Source of the DNA: a virus
IMG/VR virus record: IMGVR_UViG_3300046000_008411
Coordinates: 1 to 20,905 of that record
Strand: one strand, 5' to 3'
Length of the DNA: 20,905 bases
The notes beneath the pieces are model-generated. The model made no database searches, was not told the DNA's origin, and saw only the letters and a list, made by a program, of their open reading frames with translations. The translations under genes were made by a program, and so were the position numbers. How positions within the stretch are numbered: the first letter of the stretch is position 1; each line of letters starts with the position of its first letter. Shown here one piece after another: positions 4,221 to 17,838 of the stretch.

Positions 4221-4424
4221 ATGGCAACAGGTAAAGTAAAATGGTTTAACGACGCCAAGGGTTTTGGTTTCATTACTCCCGATAATGGTGGCGCAGATTT
4301 ATTTGCACACTTTTCACAGATTAATTCAAGTGGCTTCAAAAGCTTACAAGAAGGACAGAGTGTAAGGTTTGAAGTAACTCAGGGTCAAAAAGGCGAGCAG
4401 GCTAGCAACATTCAGCCAGCTTAA
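4221..4424 (+). CDS. cspA: Cold shock domain protein
   Basis: 67 residues, one complete cold shock domain. The RNA-binding motifs RNP1 (KGFGFI, residues 13-18) and RNP2 (DLFAHF, 26-31) are intact, and the start [14 protein letters not shown] is typical. Csp proteins bind single-stranded RNA and melt secondary structure, helping translation. The upstream 50 bases hold an AAAGG ribosome binding site and a weak -10-like TATACA (4185) without a convincing -35. The stop codon is immediately followed by an 8-bp hairpin and then the tmRNA acceptor piece, so csp and the tmRNA may share a transcript. Symbol by family only. Confidence 0.94.
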
Positions 4425-4443
4425 GGAATTGTTGTAATTCCTT
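4423..4443 (+). other. Hairpin between csp and tmRNA acceptor piece
   Basis: A perfect 8-bp stem (AAGGAATT / AATTCCTT, loop GTTGT) overlaps the csp stop codon and ends just before the tmRNA. It has no U tract, so it is not a standard terminator; it may stop decay, mark an RNA processing site, or insulate csp from the tmRNA precursor. Its 3' arm could instead pair with GAAGG at 4450-4454 (CCTTC AAAGT GAAGG), so the two folds are mutually exclusive. Confidence 0.6.
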
Positions 4444-4449
4444 CAAAGT

Positions 4450-4492
4450 GAAGGCATTCTGGACGCGGGTTCGACTCCCGCCAGGTCCACCA
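4450..4492 (+). ncRNA. ssrA: tmRNA acceptor piece (T arm and CCA end)
   Basis: Contains the helix-2 3' strand (4455-4461), linker GAC, T stem GCGGG/CCCGC (4465-4469 with 4477-4481), T loop TTCGACT, acceptor 3' strand (4482-4488), discriminator A4489 and CCA. The GGACGCGGGTTCGACTCCCG block is nearly the same as the 3' end of E. coli tmRNA. There is no D arm or anticodon arm upstream, so it is not a tRNA. The 5' end of the mature piece is a guess. Confidence 0.92.
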
Positions 4493-4503
4493 AAAGGATT
4501 GTT

Positions 4504-4617
4504 ATGTTTGAAAACTGGCATTGGAGTTATATGTGGGGCATATTGGCAACACTAAATCTTTGGTTCTGGTTAATTAAAAGTCTTTTTGATGGGCCTGATT
4601 TGGATTCGACAGGGTGA
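4504..4617 (+). CDS. Possible membrane micro-ORF in tmRNA intervening segment
   Basis: A 37-residue frame opens at ATG 4504, twelve bases after the tmRNA CCA, with an AAAGGA ribosome binding site at suitable spacing. It starts MFENWHWSYMWGILATLN, is rich in Trp and hydrophobic residues (one membrane helix: WGILATLNLWFWLIKSLF) and ends inside the tmRNA coding piece at TGA 4615-4617, where the last residues are forced by the conserved tmRNA 5' end. It could only be translated from the unprocessed precursor. The good ribosome binding site and coherent membrane helix favour a real gene; the overlap with a structured RNA argues against. Left as a candidate. Confidence 0.4.
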   Translation: MFENWHWSYMWGILATLNLWFWLIKSLFDGPDLDSTG

Positions 4618-4817
4618 GATAATAGAGACGGCAACACGGTAGGCGATGACCGTTAATCAAGCAAATAAACGTAAATGCAAAAGCAGATACATTCGACTTC
4701 AGCGCAATGAGCTTCACTGGTAACACCGTTCGTGGTGCTGCTAATGCAAGCAGATTTGCCCTAGCTGCCTAAAAAACAGCGGTCCGAGGCAGTTATGCCT
4801 TGTAATCAAAAATAGCA
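4591..4817 (+). ncRNA. ssrA: tmRNA coding piece with tag frame
   Basis: Begins with GGGCCTGATTTGGATTCGAC, the hallmark 5' end of tmRNA. ACGG (4628-4631) with CCGT (4650-4653) is a candidate for pseudoknot 1. The resume codon is most likely GCA at 4677, preceded by AAACGTAAAT, a typical context. The tag frame then runs to TAA at 4770-4772: 31 residues beginning AKADTFDFSAM and ending NASRFALAA. The ALAA end is the usual ClpXP/ClpAP-recognised signal. The tag is about three times the common length of 8-12 residues. Downstream bases to 4817 probably hold further pseudoknot structure before the terminator. Confidence 0.9.
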
Positions 4818-5629: not shown

Positions 5630-6067
5630 ATGACTGAAAAAATCAAAGGTACACGTACTGAAGAAAACCTGAAAGCCGCTTTCGCAGGCGAGTCACAGGC
5701 CAACCGCCGTTATTTGTATTTCGCGAACATGGCTGACGTAGCAGGAGATAATGATATTGCTGCTCTGTTCCGTAGCACGGCTGAAGGTGAAACCGGACAT
5801 GCACATGGTCACATGGAATATCTTATTGAAGGTGGTGCCGGCGATCCAGGTACAGGCATGAGTGCCAAAACTACCACAGAAGCTTTGGAATCAGCTATCC
5901 ACGGTGAAACACACGAGTACACCGACATGTATCCAGGTATGGCTAAGACTGCTCGTGATGAAGGCTTTGAAGAAGTAGCTGATTGGTTTGAAACACTGGC
6001 CAAAGCTGAACGCAGCCATGCCAACCGTTTTGCTAAGGCTCTAGCTGCTCACAAAGAAACACAGTAA
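5630..6067 (+). CDS. rbr: Rubrerythrin, diiron domain only
   Basis: 145 residues forming one four-helix ferritin-like domain. Diiron ligands line up with Desulfovibrio rubrerythrin: Glu21 ([10 protein letters not shown]), Glu54 and His57 (EGETGH), Glu93 and Glu96 (GETHE), Glu127 and His130 (ERSH). Rubrerythrins reduce hydrogen peroxide to water using electrons from a rubredoxin centre. The C-terminal rubredoxin domain present in classical rubrerythrin is absent here and is supplied by the separate gene that starts ten bases downstream. It has a GGAGAAA ribosome binding site and its own promoter. Length and spacing show an intact protein, not a truncation. In the infected cell it would protect against peroxide. 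Confidence 0.95.
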
Positions 6068-6077
6068 GGAGATCTTA

Positions 6078-6212
6078 ATGCAACAATACATGTGCTCAGT
6101 GTGTGGTCATATTCATGACGAGGCCGTAGACGGCGTGTTCGAAGACTTGGACAAATATCACATCTGTCCAGAATGTGGTTGTGGCAAGGAAGAATACCAG
6201 TTAGTGGCTTGA
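6078..6212 (+). CDS. Rubredoxin-like electron carrier
   Basis: A 44-residue protein with two metal-binding pairs, YMCSVCGHIHD (Cys6, Cys9) and HICPECGCGKEEY (Cys30, Cys33), the Fe(Cys)4 pattern of rubredoxin. The second knuckle CPECGCGKEEY closely resembles the rubredoxin form CPxCGxxKxxF. It has an AAGGAG ribosome binding site and begins ten bases after the rubrerythrin stop, so the pair looks like a rubrerythrin split into two polypeptides: the peroxidase core and its electron donor. The domain is shorter than the usual 52-54 residues. Which reductase feeds it is unknown; a host NADH:rubredoxin reductase would be needed. Confidence 0.88.
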   Translation: MQQYMCSVCGHIHDEAVDGVFEDLDKYHICPECGCGKEEYQLVA

Positions 6213-6273: not shown

Positions 6274-6310
6274 TATAATAATGATACATACATTAGACAT
6301 TGTATGTGTC
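6274..6310 (+). promoter_or_regulatory. -10 element and leader hairpin of pqqA
   Basis: TATAAT at 6274-6279 without a clear -35 box (a suitably spaced region reads ATGCGA). Just downstream GATACATACA (6283-6292) pairs with TGTATGTGTC (6301-6310), a 10-bp stem with one G-U and an 8-base loop, at or near the transcript start. It may be an operator or a 5' stabilising hairpin. Confidence 0.5.
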
Positions 6311-6331
6311 AACTTAACAAGGAGAAATAAC

Positions 6332-6406
6332 ATGGCATGGACTACACCAGCAGCGACTGATATGCGTTTTGGTTTTGAAATCACGATGTATATTGCCAGT
6401 CGTTAA
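6332..6406 (+). CDS. pqqA: PqqA-like PQQ precursor peptide
   Basis: A 24-residue peptide beginning [14 protein letters not shown] and carrying GFEITMY, then IASR and stop. In PqqA the Glu and Tyr of the E-x-x-x-Y motif (Glu16 and Tyr20 here) are cross-linked by the radical SAM enzyme PqqE with PqqD and become the skeleton of pyrroloquinoline quinone, the cofactor of methanol and glucose dehydrogenases. The whole peptide resembles proteobacterial PqqA (WxKPAxxDLRxGFEVTMY-type). It has a strong AAGGAGAAA ribosome binding site, an upstream -10 element and a strong terminator immediately after, so it is a self-contained gene. No pqqB-E is seen in the window, so processing would use host enzymes. 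The small size leaves a little doubt, but the match covers the full length. Confidence 0.9.
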
Positions 6407-6414
6407 TAAGAACT

Positions 6415-6446
6415 AAGAAAAAGCTCACTTCGGTGGGCTTTTTCTT
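6415..6446 (+). terminator. Strong terminator of pqqA
   Basis: A 14-bp stem (6415-6428 with 6433-6446) with a TTCG loop and one G-U pair; its 3' arm supplies the T run. Its end overlaps the -35 box of the next promoter. Confidence 0.93.
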
Positions 6447-6473
6447 GACTTGTCTAAACTCCTATGTTATAGT
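6445..6473 (+). promoter_or_regulatory. Sigma70-like promoter for SGNH hydrolase operon
   Basis: TTGACT (6445-6450), 17-bp spacer, TATAGT (6468-6473). The -35 overlaps the pqqA terminator, and GAC/GTC arms surround its end. Confidence 0.75.
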
Positions 6474-12267: not shown

Positions 12268-12646
12268 AATTTTGGTTATAACACCCCCCGATGACACAGT
12301 GTTACAAGGTCTAAGACTTATTCATGTAAATCTCACCAACGAACAAACTGCTGTAGTGTCCCAGGCAATTCTACAAAATAAATTACCACATAATGTCATC
12401 AATTATGTCTGGCACGTCGGTAATCCTGTATCTTGGTTACTGCAAATGAAATCTAAGAGTAATCTTATTATATTCAACGCAGACTCTAGTCCAGACAGTG
12501 ACATAATCAATGGTTACATAGCAGCAGATCCAAGATCGTATTATTTTGGTACACTGCGAGATTTACATGTGGCCAACGATCGTGTTATACTTAACTGTGA
12601 TGAAATTTTAAACCTATTGGAGACTATCTCAAAATATCATGATTAA
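12257..12646 (+). CDS. Unknown phage protein (129 aa)
   Basis: 129 residues from GTG 12257, overlapping the end of the membrane protein and overlapped by the S21 gene. It opens [17 protein letters not shown] and has a Rossmann-like alternation of strands and helices ([27 protein letters not shown]). No catalytic motif is visible. It resembles uncharacterised proteins seen in T4-like aquatic phages, with [12 protein letters not shown] and IIFNADS as its most distinctive parts. The start codon is not certain because the ribosome binding site is weak. Function unknown. Confidence 0.75.
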
Positions 12647-12875
12647 AACTAATAAACTTTCAGGAACCGGTGTTATAGTCAAAGAAAACGAAAACATCAA
12701 TCAAGCATTACGTAGATTAAAGAAAAAGGTAGAAGACGCAGGAACTTTAGATACGCTTAGATCTAAAGAGTTCTACGAAAAACCAACTACCGAGCGCAAA
12801 CGCAAGAAAGGTGCTGCCAAAGCCCGCTGGCGTAAAAAACTCCGCGATCAACAACTCCCTCCTAAACTGTTTTAA
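12639..12875 (+). CDS. rpsU: Ribosomal protein bS21
   Basis: 78 residues with the clear bS21 signature: a [18 protein letters not shown] helix, then [20 protein letters not shown] and a basic C-terminal helix ([12 protein letters not shown]). The [11 protein letters not shown] block is nearly the same as bacterial S21. This small protein sits at the 30S platform near the anti-Shine-Dalgarno sequence and affects initiation, so a phage copy could bias ribosomes toward phage mRNA; phage-encoded bS21 has been reported in several aquatic phages. The start overlaps the previous gene by 8 bases. The N-terminus (about 12 residues) is longer than in host proteins and an internal start cannot be excluded. 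Confidence 0.95.
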
Positions 12876-13868: not shown

Positions 13869-15770
13869 ATGTCTAAGATCATCGGTATTGACCTCGGCAC
13901 CACCAACTCATGCGTGGCTGTTATCGAGAATGGAAAATCCAAAGTTATTGAAAATTCAGAAGGTGCAAGAACCACACCCTCAGTTGTGGCGTACACTCCA
14001 GATGAGATCATTGTCGGCGCTTCAGCTAAACGGCAAGCAGTTACAAATCCCAAGAATACAATCTATGCCAGCAAGCGACTAATTGGTCGAAAGTTTAAAG
14101 AACAAGCTGTGCAGAAAGATCTCGATCTCATGCCATATGAGATCTACGAAAACAGCAACGGTGATGCTTGGGTTCGAGCTCAAGGCAAAGAATTCGCACC
14201 GCCACAGATTTCAGCAGAAGTTCTGCGTAAGATGAAGTCGACCGCAGAGGATTACCTAGGACATGAAGTCACACAGGCTGTGATTACTGTGCCTGCCTAC
14301 TTCAACGATAGCCAAAGACAGGCGACTAAAGATGCTGGCAAGATCGCAGGCCTAGAAGTTCTGCGTATTATCAACGAACCCACGGCGGCTGCTCTGGCCT
14401 ATGGTGTAGACAAAGAAGATAAAAAAGATCGCAAGATTGCTGTTTACGATCTAGGTGGTGGTACGTTCGACGTATCGATTATTGAGATAGCGAATGTAGA
14501 CGGAGACAAGCAAATCGAAGTACTCAGCACCAATGGTGACACATTCCTGGGCGGTGAAGACTTTGACCAACGTATCATGGATCATCTCTGCGATGAATTC
14601 AAGAAAGATCAAGGAGTTGACCTTACCAAAGACATGTTGGCACTCCAGCGACTGAAAGATGCTGCTGAAAAAGCCAAGATCGAATTGTCCAGCAGCACCA
14701 GCACAGATGTTAACCTACCTTACATCACTGCAGACGCTTCCGGTCCACGTCACATGAACATCAAGATCAGTCGTGCCAAGTTAGAATCATTGGTAGAGGA
14801 ACTGGTTAACAGAAGTTTAGAGCCATGCCGCACAGCACTCAAAGATGCTGGTGTTACTGCTGCTGACATTGACGAAGTTATCCTTGTTGGTGGACAGACA
14901 CGCATGCCTAAGGTGCAGGAAGAAGTTGAGAAGTTGTTTGGTAAAGCACCACGTAAAGATGTTAACCCAGACGAAGCAGTGGCAGTTGGTGCTGCTATCC
15001 AGGGTGCTGTGTTAGGTGGTGATCGCACAGACGTGCTGCTGTTAGATGTAACACCACTCTCCTTGGGCATCGAGACCATGGGCGGTGTAATGTCAAAGAT
15101 CATCCAAAAGAACACAACAATCCCTACCAAGGGACAGCAGACATTCTCCACAGCAGAAGACAATCAACCAGCTGTAGACATCAAAGTGTTCCAAGGTGAG
15201 CGTGAGCTTGTTAAGTTCAACAAACTGCTAGGCGAATTTAAATTAGATGGCATTGCCCCTGCACGTAGAGGACAGCCACAGGTCGAAGTGACCTTTGACA
15301 TTGATGCTAACGGCATCATGCATATCTCTGCCAAAGACAAATCAACCGGCAAAGAAAACAAGATCACTATTAAATCAAATAGCGGATTATCAGAAGCTGA
15401 AATTGAAGCCATGATCAAAGATGCAGAGCTGAATGCAGAAGCAGACAAAAAAGCTCGTGAGTTGATTGACGCAAGAAATTCAGCGGAAGCACAGGTGCAT
15501 GAAGTCAAGAAAGATCTTGAAGAATTCCGTGCAGAACTCACAGAAGCAGAGGTCACAGAAATCGAAACTGTGATCACTGAAGTAGAATCTGCGATGACCG
15601 GTGATGACAAAGACAAGATCAACGAAGCATTGACTAAGGTATTTCCAGCAATGAAAACACTGTTAGATAAAAAGCAGGCCAAAGAACAGGCAGCACAAGC
15701 CCAGCCTACTCAGCCTGAAGCAGATGATGTAGTTGATGCCAGCTTCACAGAGAAGAAGAAGGCAGACTAA
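13869..15770 (+). CDS. dnaK: Chaperone DnaK (Hsp70)
   Basis: 633 residues, close to the E. coli length of 638, with all parts intact: ATPase motifs [10 protein letters not shown] (5-14), [22 protein letters not shown] and [10 protein letters not shown]; the interdomain linker [12 protein letters not shown]; the substrate-binding beta domain ([16 protein letters not shown] onward); and the helical lid with a Gln/Ala-rich tail ending [13 protein letters not shown]. DnaK folds proteins with DnaJ and GrpE, neither of which is encoded here, so it would need host partners. It is preceded by a late-type promoter and a structured leader with a strong AAGGAG site, and followed by hsp20. A complete DnaK is rare in phage genomes; the bacterial-type sequence implies capture from a host. 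Confidence 0.98.
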
Positions 15771-15826
15771 TCATAACCGAGGTACTTTCGAGGCCTCAAT
15801 TGTTCTTACTTTAAAAGGAGACTATT

Positions 15827-16270
15827 ATGAACAATCAATTAGCTAGAATAGATGCTCTTAGCAGAGCATTGGTGGGATTCGACACCATGTTTGATCAGAT
15901 GGAACGCAGATTTGCCAACAGCGTACCTAATAACTATCCTCCACACAATATACTCAAGACTGGTGAGAATCAGTATGAGATTCAAATTGCTGTGACCGGA
16001 TTTGAAAAATCGGAAATCGCCGTGACTGTGGAATCTAATGTTCTCACTGTCACTGGCGAAGGAGCGGAATCTATTCGCCACGAGAATCCGGAGGTTGTTT
16101 ACTTGCATAGAGGGCTGGCTACTCGTGATTTTGCCAAGGAATTTCCTCTGGCCGAACACATTGAAGTCACTGGTGCGGAGATTAAGAATGGTATGCTGAT
16201 CGTTAAATTGATTCGCAACGTTCCAGAATCTGAAAAACCACGTGTCATTGACATCGTTGACGTTAAATAG
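15827..16270 (+). CDS. Small heat shock protein Hsp20 (IbpA-like)
   Basis: 147 residues. The N-terminal arm (FDTMFDQMERRFAN) is followed by an alpha-crystallin domain (about 36-135) with YEIQIAVTGFEKSEIAVTVE, LTVTGEG, HRGLATRDFAKEFPLAEHIEV and the conserved A-x-x-x-N-G-M-L sequence (AEIKNGMLIVKL); the C-terminal IDI matches the I-x-I motif used for oligomer assembly. These proteins hold unfolding clients for DnaK, which is encoded just upstream, so the pair may work together in virion protein folding. Hsp20 is a common gene of T4-like aquatic phages. AAAAGGAG ribosome binding site; the 56 bases before it hold nothing else convincing. Confidence 0.95.
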   Translation: MNNQLARIDALSRALVGFDTMFDQMERRFANSVPNNYPPHNILKTGENQYEIQIAVTGFEKSEIAVTVESNVLTVTGEGAESIRHENPEVVYLHRGLATRDFAKEFPLAEHIEVTGAEIKNGMLIVKLIRNVPESEKPRVIDIVDVK

Positions 16271-16276
16271 TACAAT

Positions 16277-16303
16277 ATAAGGGAGGGAAACCTCCCTTAT
16301 TAA
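16277..16303 (+). terminator. Hairpin terminator after hsp20
   Basis: Ten-bp stem ATAAGGGAGG (16277-16286) with CCTCCCTTAT (16291-16300) and a GAAA tetraloop. The T tract is weak (TTATTAAAT), so termination may be partial. TTAAATACTC just after it could be a degenerate late-promoter box for clpS. Confidence 0.75.
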
Positions 16304-16323
16304 ATACTCAACATAGGAAACAT

Positions 16324-16623
16324 ATGTCAACAGATACCGCAGTAGAAGAATCAGTAATTACAGCACTTCAACCCCCTAGCCTATGGAAGGTGGTATTTCT
16401 CAATGATGATTCTACTCCAATGGAACTTGTAATCGATATTCTCACAGACGTTTTCAAACATACTGAATCGTCTGCTAAACAGGTAACATTGGAAATACAC
16501 GAAACAGGCAGTGGTATAGCAGGCGTGTACAGTTTTGAAATCGCTGAACAAAAAGGAATCGAAGCCACAACAATGGCTAGACAACAAGGTTCTCCATTAC
16601 GTATACAAGTGGATCCAGAATGA
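16324..16623 (+). CDS. clpS: ClpS-like N-degron adaptor
   Basis: 99 residues with the ClpS core from about residue 20: WKVVFLNDDSTPMELVIDIL, containing the NDD (27-29) and TPM (31-33) elements that form the N-degron pocket, plus His59 in LEIHETGSG, the other pocket residue. The end carries the helix-strand QQGSPLRIQVD like bacterial ClpS. ClpS delivers proteins with bulky N-terminal residues to ClpAP and blocks ClpA from degrading ssrA-tagged proteins. In a phage that also encodes a tmRNA this is notable, since it could change how tagged proteins are destroyed. It overlaps the heme oxygenase start (ATGA), forming a three-gene unit. AGGAAA ribosome binding site. Confidence 0.93.
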   Translation: MSTDTAVEESVITALQPPSLWKVVFLNDDSTPMELVIDILTDVFKHTESSAKQVTLEIHETGSGIAGVYSFEIAEQKGIEATTMARQQGSPLRIQVDPE

Positions 16624-17165
16624 GTCTAAGAGAGATTACTAAAGATCTGCATCACGAAGCAGAAACCACTGTATTCGCTAAGATGTTGCTGAGCGGCAAG
16701 ATTGAACGAGAAGACTACAGAAATTATCTCTATAACCTTTTGGCCATATATGATCCAATCGAATGGTATTGCCAGCGTCAGGGTTTCCTTGTCACTATGC
16801 CAGACCTACCTCGCTTGAAAGGCATTCACGCTGACTTTCAAGAATTAGACGACGGATCGTATTGTTATCTTACTCCAGCAACACTTGAGTATCAAGCCTA
16901 CTTACACAAACTAGGAAATGATGCGGAACGTAAACATCTCGTTAAGGCACATTTATACTGCCGGCACATGGGAGACCTATTCGGCGGCCAAATCATTAAG
17001 AAACAGGTAGCACATATTTCGAGCGGCAAGTTCTATGACTTTGAAAATGGTGATGCTATGAAGATGTCTATTCGAGAAATGTTAACAGACGATCTAGGTG
17101 ATGAAGCTAGAGTGGCATTTGAATATGCTATCAAAATGATGCGAGATCTGTATCGTGGACAGTAA
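16620..17165 (+). CDS. ho1: Heme oxygenase
   Basis: 181 residues, all-helical. The N-terminal TKDLHHEAE matches TKEVHTQAE of known enzymes and provides the axial His11; the distal helix reads HLYCRHMGDLFGGQII with Gly118, catalytic Asp119 and Gly122/Gly123, matching GDLSGGQ. Heme oxygenase opens heme to biliverdin, iron and CO using ferredoxin or another reductant. Length is shorter than cyanobacterial enzymes (about 240) but similar to phage forms. It lies between clpS and a ferredoxin-dependent bilin reductase, with overlaps on both sides, so biliverdin is likely passed directly to the next enzyme. Confidence 0.93.
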   Translation: MSLREITKDLHHEAETTVFAKMLLSGKIEREDYRNYLYNLLAIYDPIEWYCQRQGFLVTMPDLPRLKGIHADFQELDDGSYCYLTPATLEYQAYLHKLGNDAERKHLVKAHLYCRHMGDLFGGQIIKKQVAHISSGKFYDFENGDAMKMSIREMLTDDLGDEARVAFEYAIKMMRDLYRGQ

Positions 17166-17838
17166 GGTCTGGGATACTTTAATAGACGTACAACATCTAT
17201 TAGAGGATAACTTCAACAACACTGGCAAAGAAATCTTTGAGCCGGGGATGGATCGGTTTAATCAACCGGGGTGGGTTAATAGAGTTTGGACCAGTGATGA
17301 TTATCGTAGAGCTCATATCGATGTAGTCGATGCCCGATCCACAAAGGGACTCTGGATGATGCATTGCTGTATTTTCCCACATATCCATAACCCGGCACCT
17401 ATTTACGGATTTGATGTTATTGCAGGTAAAAATAAGATAACTGGTTGTTTTCATGATTTCAGTCCAGCTGGCGACATTGAACATTCTCTCATCGATTGGT
17501 TCGCTGCCGAAACTCAAAAATTACAGTGGAATAAAACACGGAAACTACCTGAGTGGGCCGAGCGTATTTTCACAGGATCTATGATTGCTGCGGGCAATGT
17601 CAGCGATCCGGAAGAACTAGAACAGATCATGGATCTTGTAAAACTTACCACAGAAGTATATCTCAAGCATGTGGGCGATACCAACGGCACGGCTAGGAAT
17701 ACCACTGACAATCAAAATTACTATGCTCAAAATCAGAAGCAAAACCCACATACACCGCGTGTAATGGTGAGTTTAGGGCTTTCAGAGGATGATGTCCAGC
17801 ATTTTATTCAAGAATGCCTGTTCCCAGAAATACGCTAA
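17155..17838 (+). CDS. Ferredoxin-dependent bilin reductase (PcyX/PebS-like)
   Basis: 227 residues from GTG 17155, overlapping the heme oxygenase end by 11 bases. Family marks: LWMMHCCIFPHIHNPAPI, YGFDVIAGKNKITGCFHDFSP with Asp87 matching the catalytic Asp105 of PebS, and a C-terminal YYAQNQKQNPHTPRVM motif ending in LFPEIR. FDBRs reduce biliverdin to phycobilins such as phycoerythrobilin or phycocyanobilin. The neighbour heme oxygenase and the non-cyanobacterial look of this phage recall the ho1-pcyX cassette described from marine metagenomic phages; whether this protein is PcyX rather than PebS or PcyA cannot be settled by eye. No phycobiliprotein or phytochrome is encoded here. Confidence 0.9.
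   Translation: MDSKVWDTLIDVQHLLEDNFNNTGKEIFEPGMDRFNQPGWVNRVWTSDDYRRAHIDVVDARSTKGLWMMHCCIFPHIHNPAPIYGFDVIAGKNKITGCFHDFSPAGDIEHSLIDWFAAETQKLQWNKTRKLPEWAERIFTGSMIAAGNVSDPEELEQIMDLVKLTTEVYLKHVGDTNGTARNTTDNQNYYAQNQKQNPHTPRVMVSLGLSEDDVQHFIQECLFPEIR

Follow-up and report, generated by a model that had tools for sequence, protein, structure and literature searches.

The 20,905-base virus record analysed here (the whole stretch is hereafter called the window) encodes the PQQ precursor peptide PqqA and, according to its open reading frame list and Pfam searches, no other pqq gene. Phage pqqA itself is already known, and the window gene adds another case. The initial annotation knew of no described phage pqqA, which is incorrect; two reports precede it, i.e., the Lake Baikal phage population VP_266 (2020), presented with pqqA plus a methanol dehydrogenase (PMC7678222), and a reservoir study of 2026 that lists viral pqqA (PMC13188868). 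VP_266 is a T4-like contig with a predicted Methylophilaceae host and with the same PQQ-supply role as proposed here, and the passages on it describe neither the cassette layout nor the breadth of phage pqqA. In the open-access literature, no description was found of how widely pqqA is carried, of its occurrence in cultured methylophages, of the lack of partner genes, of the parallel with host copy number, or of the cassette layout. For the general pattern, we give one broader reading, taken as a whole, an even chance: phages of PQQ-using aquatic bacteria would repeatedly have taken up only the gene of the precursor peptide, in the form of an autonomous cassette for high expression, peptide dosage and not enzyme level would then be the viral handle on methanol (or other quinoprotein) oxidation, and pqqA would be near-universal in Methylophilales phages. 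Supply of PqqA by a phage, if true, would clearly exemplify a virus giving a host peptide-maturation pathway its substrate and not an enzyme. Methylophilales are important aquatic methanol oxidisers.

Identification of pqqA in the window

The ATG-to-TAA frame at 6332–6406 (+) encodes 24 residues, and its identity as full-length PqqA, proposed in the initial annotation, was confirmed at the sequence level. Both family profiles were matched over their entire length, i.e., PF08042 (40.6 bits, E-value 2.3e-10, profile positions 1–19 of 19; Pfam profile search) and the equivalog TIGR02107 (40.2 bits, E-value 2e-10, positions 1–21 of 21; NCBIfam profile search). A chance match is excluded because these scores are far above the curated cutoffs (21.1 bits for PF08042, 20 bits for TIGR02107); across the whole window record, PF08042 had one match (38.6 bits). 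A stronger match to an unrelated peptide was looked for, and no competing family was found in Pfam, NCBIfam, or PHROGs, the latter containing no family corresponding to the window pqqA. The two residues of the E-x3-Y core that become PQQ, pointed out earlier as the crosslinked Glu and Tyr of GFEITMY, are in place as E16 and Y20. The pqqA genes of pqqABCDE operons (e.g., Pseudomonas, Acinetobacter) encode the same precursor peptide family with the same core, but head the enzyme genes, whereas the window pqqA is without any enzyme gene, as had been claimed before. The features of the pqqA unit are listed below with window coordinates and strand; motifs and codons were read from the sequence, and hairpins were assessed by folding.

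6274–6279 (+): TATAAT, -10 element belonging to pqqA (no consensus -35 found)
6282–6311 (+): 5′ untranslated stem-loop, 11-bp stem and 8-nt loop (fold -13.9 kcal/mol, z -2.7)
6319–6324 (+): ribosome-binding site AAGGAG (Shine-Dalgarno-like site in 138/138 distinct cassettes)
6332–6406 (+): pqqA, PQQ precursor peptide, 24 aa (profile scores as above)
6377–6391 (+): codons E16 to Y20 (E-I-T-M-Y), with the Glu and Tyr that are crosslinked to yield PQQ (both invariant in 138/138 distinct cassettes)
6414–6447 (+): terminator-like hairpin, 15 bp, UUCG loop (fold -20.2 kcal/mol, z -6.6)

Layout of the pqqA cassette

In the order TATAAT, 5′ stem-loop, strong ribosome-binding site, pqqA, and terminator-like hairpin, the window pqqA looks like an independent transcription unit; this reading follows from the flanking elements together with a separate promoter-like site (TTGACT-17-TATAGT at 6445–6473) of the downstream gene, a GDSL/SGNH-like hydrolase (Pfam Lipase_GDSL_2, slightly below the cutoff). 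The gene's own -10 element and strong ribosome-binding site, both named in the initial annotation, were recovered, although no -35 consensus was found for the former and a promoter scan did not list it either. The 14-bp terminator was recovered as a hairpin, but its stem comprises 15 bp, and it was absent from the list of a simple terminator scan of the window, probably because the stem absorbs its T-run. The 11-bp stem-loop that separates the ribosome-binding site from the -10 element had gone unmentioned. Directly 5′ of pqqA, a rubrerythrin and then a small rubredoxin-like protein are encoded (window 5630–6212, +); rubrerythrin is also present in Pelagibacter phage Mosig and near pqqA in several related loci.

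The cassettes share descent, their counts are non-independent events, and the following layout statistics overstate independence: hairpins below -10 kcal/mol lie 3′ of pqqA in 84% of phage cassettes vs 35% among the remaining genes of these loci, TATAAT lies upstream in 45/134 cassettes vs 26/389 other genes, and TATAAT closely followed by a stem-loop of at least 7 bp was found in 21/134 cassettes vs 3.1 expected on shuffling (5/389 among other genes). Only this combination is enriched, whereas upstream RNA structure in general is not (median -12.3 vs -11.9 kcal/mol). Based on an alignment of upstream regions (n = 17), related cassettes appear to carry stem-loops of a similar kind, with the sequence varying by lineage and the pairing kept. 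One hairpin near the 5′ end and another at the 3′ end would presumably shield the short mRNA. Solitary host copies resemble the phage copies in standing alone away from pqqBCDE and in the terminator-like hairpin that follows most of them; they differ in that TATAAT, often present with a 5′ stem-loop in phages, was found in 0/46 host pqqA copies examined.

Distribution and selection of pqqA among viruses

PqqA is encoded on at least 588 IMG/VR contigs, this being the number confirmed among 600 candidate stretches listed in a profile search (profile built from phage PqqAs and one Acinetobacter sequence). For conservation analysis, 138 distinct cassettes were drawn from the loci in hand, in all of which the core residues W, P, R, G, F, E, T, and Y are invariant; the initial annotation had tied its reading to conservation of Glu, Tyr, and frame in related phages, and this conservation was observed. 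The 133 distinct pqqA genes encode only 74 peptides, and a pN/pS of 0.21 over 130 aligned core genes indicates purifying selection on the peptide. Identity of the window gene is 89.4% to the nearest phage gene and 84.8% to the closest of the host genes sampled, and some phage PqqA peptides are identical to the host peptide. With respect to the definition of an auxiliary metabolic gene, pqqA is hence a homologue of a host metabolic gene under selection, and it resides on genuine phage genomes, as seen from isolate genomes and from the co-occurrence of Gp23 and terminase (see below).

Exactly one pqqA was found in each of 38 pqqA records searched. Among 81 loci with both neighbours visible, 64 different pairs of neighbour families were counted, and because neighbourhoods mostly differ, pqqA was gained or moved many times. 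In close relatives of the window (L040, L042, L049, and L052), pqqA precedes the same downstream gene family, i.e., the suggested check for pqqA at the same place in related phages came out positive; eleven nearby gene families are shared between the window and L070, and eight between the window and L049.

A solitary gene on phage genomes

Among 50 whole pqqA records of up to 172 kb, none contained PqqE above the family cutoff. Weak PqqE-profile matches in three records were far under the cutoff and were read as other radical SAM proteins. A PQQ alcohol dehydrogenase was likewise found in none of the 50, in contrast to VP_266, for which a methanol dehydrogenase is reported on the same contig (PMC7678222). 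By tblastn, pqqB, C, D, or E were detected in 0/156 viral loci and in most of 80 bacterial loci.

INPHARED (50,697 phage records) was searched by tblastn at an E-value of up to 10, yielding nine Methylophilales phages (four Melnitz, P19250A, Venkman, MEP301, MEP401, and MEP402), the spring podovirus ctXG6705, and Acinetobacter phage MD-2021a (a bacterial contig). A Pseudomonas-type PqqA query returned the same records and no Pseudomonas phage. The Methylophilales phages MEP431–434, HIM624-A, phiMB624-A, and Venkman EXVC038S are in the taxonomy and not among the matches, and no claim on pqqA is made for them. In the nine cultured Methylophilales phages, the gene is never annotated as pqqA: P19250A, Venkman, MEP301, MEP401, and MEP402 have no feature at its position, and the four Melnitz genomes have a hypothetical protein annotated over it. 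In Melnitz-1 (L002), this is gp151 (QZI94433.1; 3967–4062), a hypothetical open reading frame on the strand opposite pqqA and probably a false gene call; in ctXG6705, an open reading frame is called on the opposite strand as well. The papers on these cultured phages that were searched do not mention phage pqqA. With its 23–25 residues, pqqA is missed by annotation pipelines and may rank among the commonest metabolic genes of Methylophilales viruses; PqqA may also point to the host when a phage of PQQ-using bacteria is uncultured. Melnitz groups with Mosig and HTVC008M, which are phages of SAR11, and the authors of its description favour a recent switch from SAR11 to OM43 (PMC9004378). No pqqA was found in the related SAR11 myophages Mosig and HTVC008M, whereas Melnitz has it; this pattern, a single comparison, is what would be expected of a gene that meets a need specific to OM43.

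That such records are host DNA mis-sorted into a virus collection, i.e., stray bacterial contigs with a solitary chromosomal pqqA, is extremely unlikely. Solitary pqqA genes do exist in hosts, and the GenBank entry “Acinetobacter phage MD-2021a”, which has pqqABCDE, is clearly of bacterial origin; yet complete genomes of cultured phages hold pqqA, which refutes host contamination for the pqqA family, and the lack of pqqBCDE in viral loci, the T4-type capsid protein Gp23 in 9/50 whole pqqA records, and terminase matches in 9/28 records tested also speak against it. The window itself has phage-type ribonucleotide reductase genes and further PHROG matches; a terminase search left the window and its two closest large relatives without a match, and tail matches in PHROG were only weak in these two relatives. 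The MD-2021a record (L005, CAKLQF020000010.1) additionally encodes a polyphosphate kinase and a dipeptidase; it was deposited as a phage.

pqqA copies of hosts and the host of the window virus

Three genomes of 1.3 Mb each contain three identical pqqA peptides and one PqqE over the cutoff, located more than 100 kb from every pqqA; for six pqqA copies inspected in two of these genomes, no pqqBCDE was found nearby. The size and the peptide of these genomes, probable hosts of such phages, suggest the OM43/LD28 group. Another host genome has seven pqqA copies, one of which adjoins pqqBCDE, and PqqE was present in 10/10 PQQ-type bacterial genomes searched. As host pqqA also occurs away from the operon, linkage to pqqBCDE is not defining for PqqA. 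Methylophilaceae have been reported to carry 3–12 pqqA genes and, in all but one case, just one set of the remaining pqq genes (PMC4109929). In a methylotroph with five copies, the separate pqqA3 and the operon copy pqqA1 followed similar expression trends and were expressed far more strongly than the others (PMC9851590). Hosts multiply pqqA themselves, and the phage pqqA is thus one more copy. The solitary Methylophilaceae genes (PMC4109929; G219, G286, G316, G346, and G255, probably of this family) encode the same peptide, to which some phage copies are identical.

The window virus may not be a Methylophilales phage because its tmRNA is betaproteobacterial, the host genes nearest to its pqqA are in Oxalobacteraceae MAGs, and for its DnaK, identity to the full-length matches among the genomes tried does not exceed ~73%. 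The tmRNA lies at 4389–4772 (+) (Rfam RF01850, 130 bits; RF04321, 134 bits); tmRNA in phages is of a known kind (PMC9004378).

Proposed role and alternative explanations

PqqA is a substrate, one peptide being consumed per PQQ, and is therefore the part of the pathway most usefully multiplied; hosts show the same logic with several solitary pqqA copies and one enzyme set. We think it quite likely that phage PqqA feeds the host PqqD/E/B/C/F and thereby increases PQQ, or keeps it up, for quinoprotein dehydrogenases in infected cells; we infer that pqqA is expressed in infection, that host enzymes mature the peptide, that PQQ is increased or sustained, and that the phage benefits. In brief, PqqA would be translated from a short phage transcript that has a hairpin close to each end, Glu16 and Tyr20 of the phage peptide would be crosslinked by PqqD and PqqE of the host, and host PqqF/G, PqqB, and PqqC would complete PQQ. 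With PqqA added to that of the host, or still being produced once host transcription drops, periplasmic PQQ dehydrogenases would stay charged and continue feeding electrons during infection (methanol dehydrogenase in Methylophilales). Viruses with pqqA probably sustain one of the host's energy pathways by giving raw material and none of its enzymes. Crosslinking of Glu and Tyr of PqqA by PqqE with PqqD is documented (PMC12997753), and a Gluconobacter extract turned added PqqA peptide into PQQ, as summarized in PMC9851590 from another study. In Acetobacter, pqqAB increased PQQ by 29% vs eightfold for pqqABCDE (PMC7936290), hence PqqA is not the bottleneck in every case; where PqqE sets the flux instead, additional PqqA would have little effect.

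Supply of PqqA could also take a narrower form, in which host transcription or DNA is shut down and phage pqqA only holds PqqA at its normal level. The autonomous cassette layout fits such continued supply, and from established pathway knowledge, PqqA is consumed, so that a lost supply would be felt quickly; we give this version of the preferred explanation somewhat less than an even chance. It is very unlikely that pqqA is a hitch-hiking cassette from which the phage gains nothing: the many different neighbourhoods (64 pairs in 81 loci) would suit this, whereas purifying selection, the maintained expression layout, and the absence of pqqA from related phages of SAR11 hosts argue against it. 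Phage PqqA might instead act as a decoy that occupies host PqqD/PqqE and blocks PQQ synthesis, and PqqA does bind PqqD (PMC10906245); a decoy would have no need of the reactive residues, but Glu and Tyr are kept in every one of the distinct cassettes and some phage peptides equal the host peptide, leaving this reading most improbable. Feeding of the host pathway can be tested directly with existing phage–host pairs (Venkman or Melnitz on strain H5P1), for which the published medium includes 1 nM PQQ.

Other genes in the window

A heme oxygenase gene (PF01126) overlaps a gene for a ferredoxin-dependent bilin reductase (PF05996, phrog_7278) at 16620–17838 (+), forming a bilin-making pair in a phage of non-cyanobacterial appearance. 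Full-length DnaK followed by Hsp20 and ClpS at 13869–16623 (+) represents a phage-borne chaperone and proteolysis cluster, and a DnaK-like open reading frame was also found in the relative L344. A gene for ribosomal protein S21 (PF01165) is located at 12639–12875 (+); PMC9004378 describes this protein for Melnitz, Venkman, and Pelagibacter phages as well.
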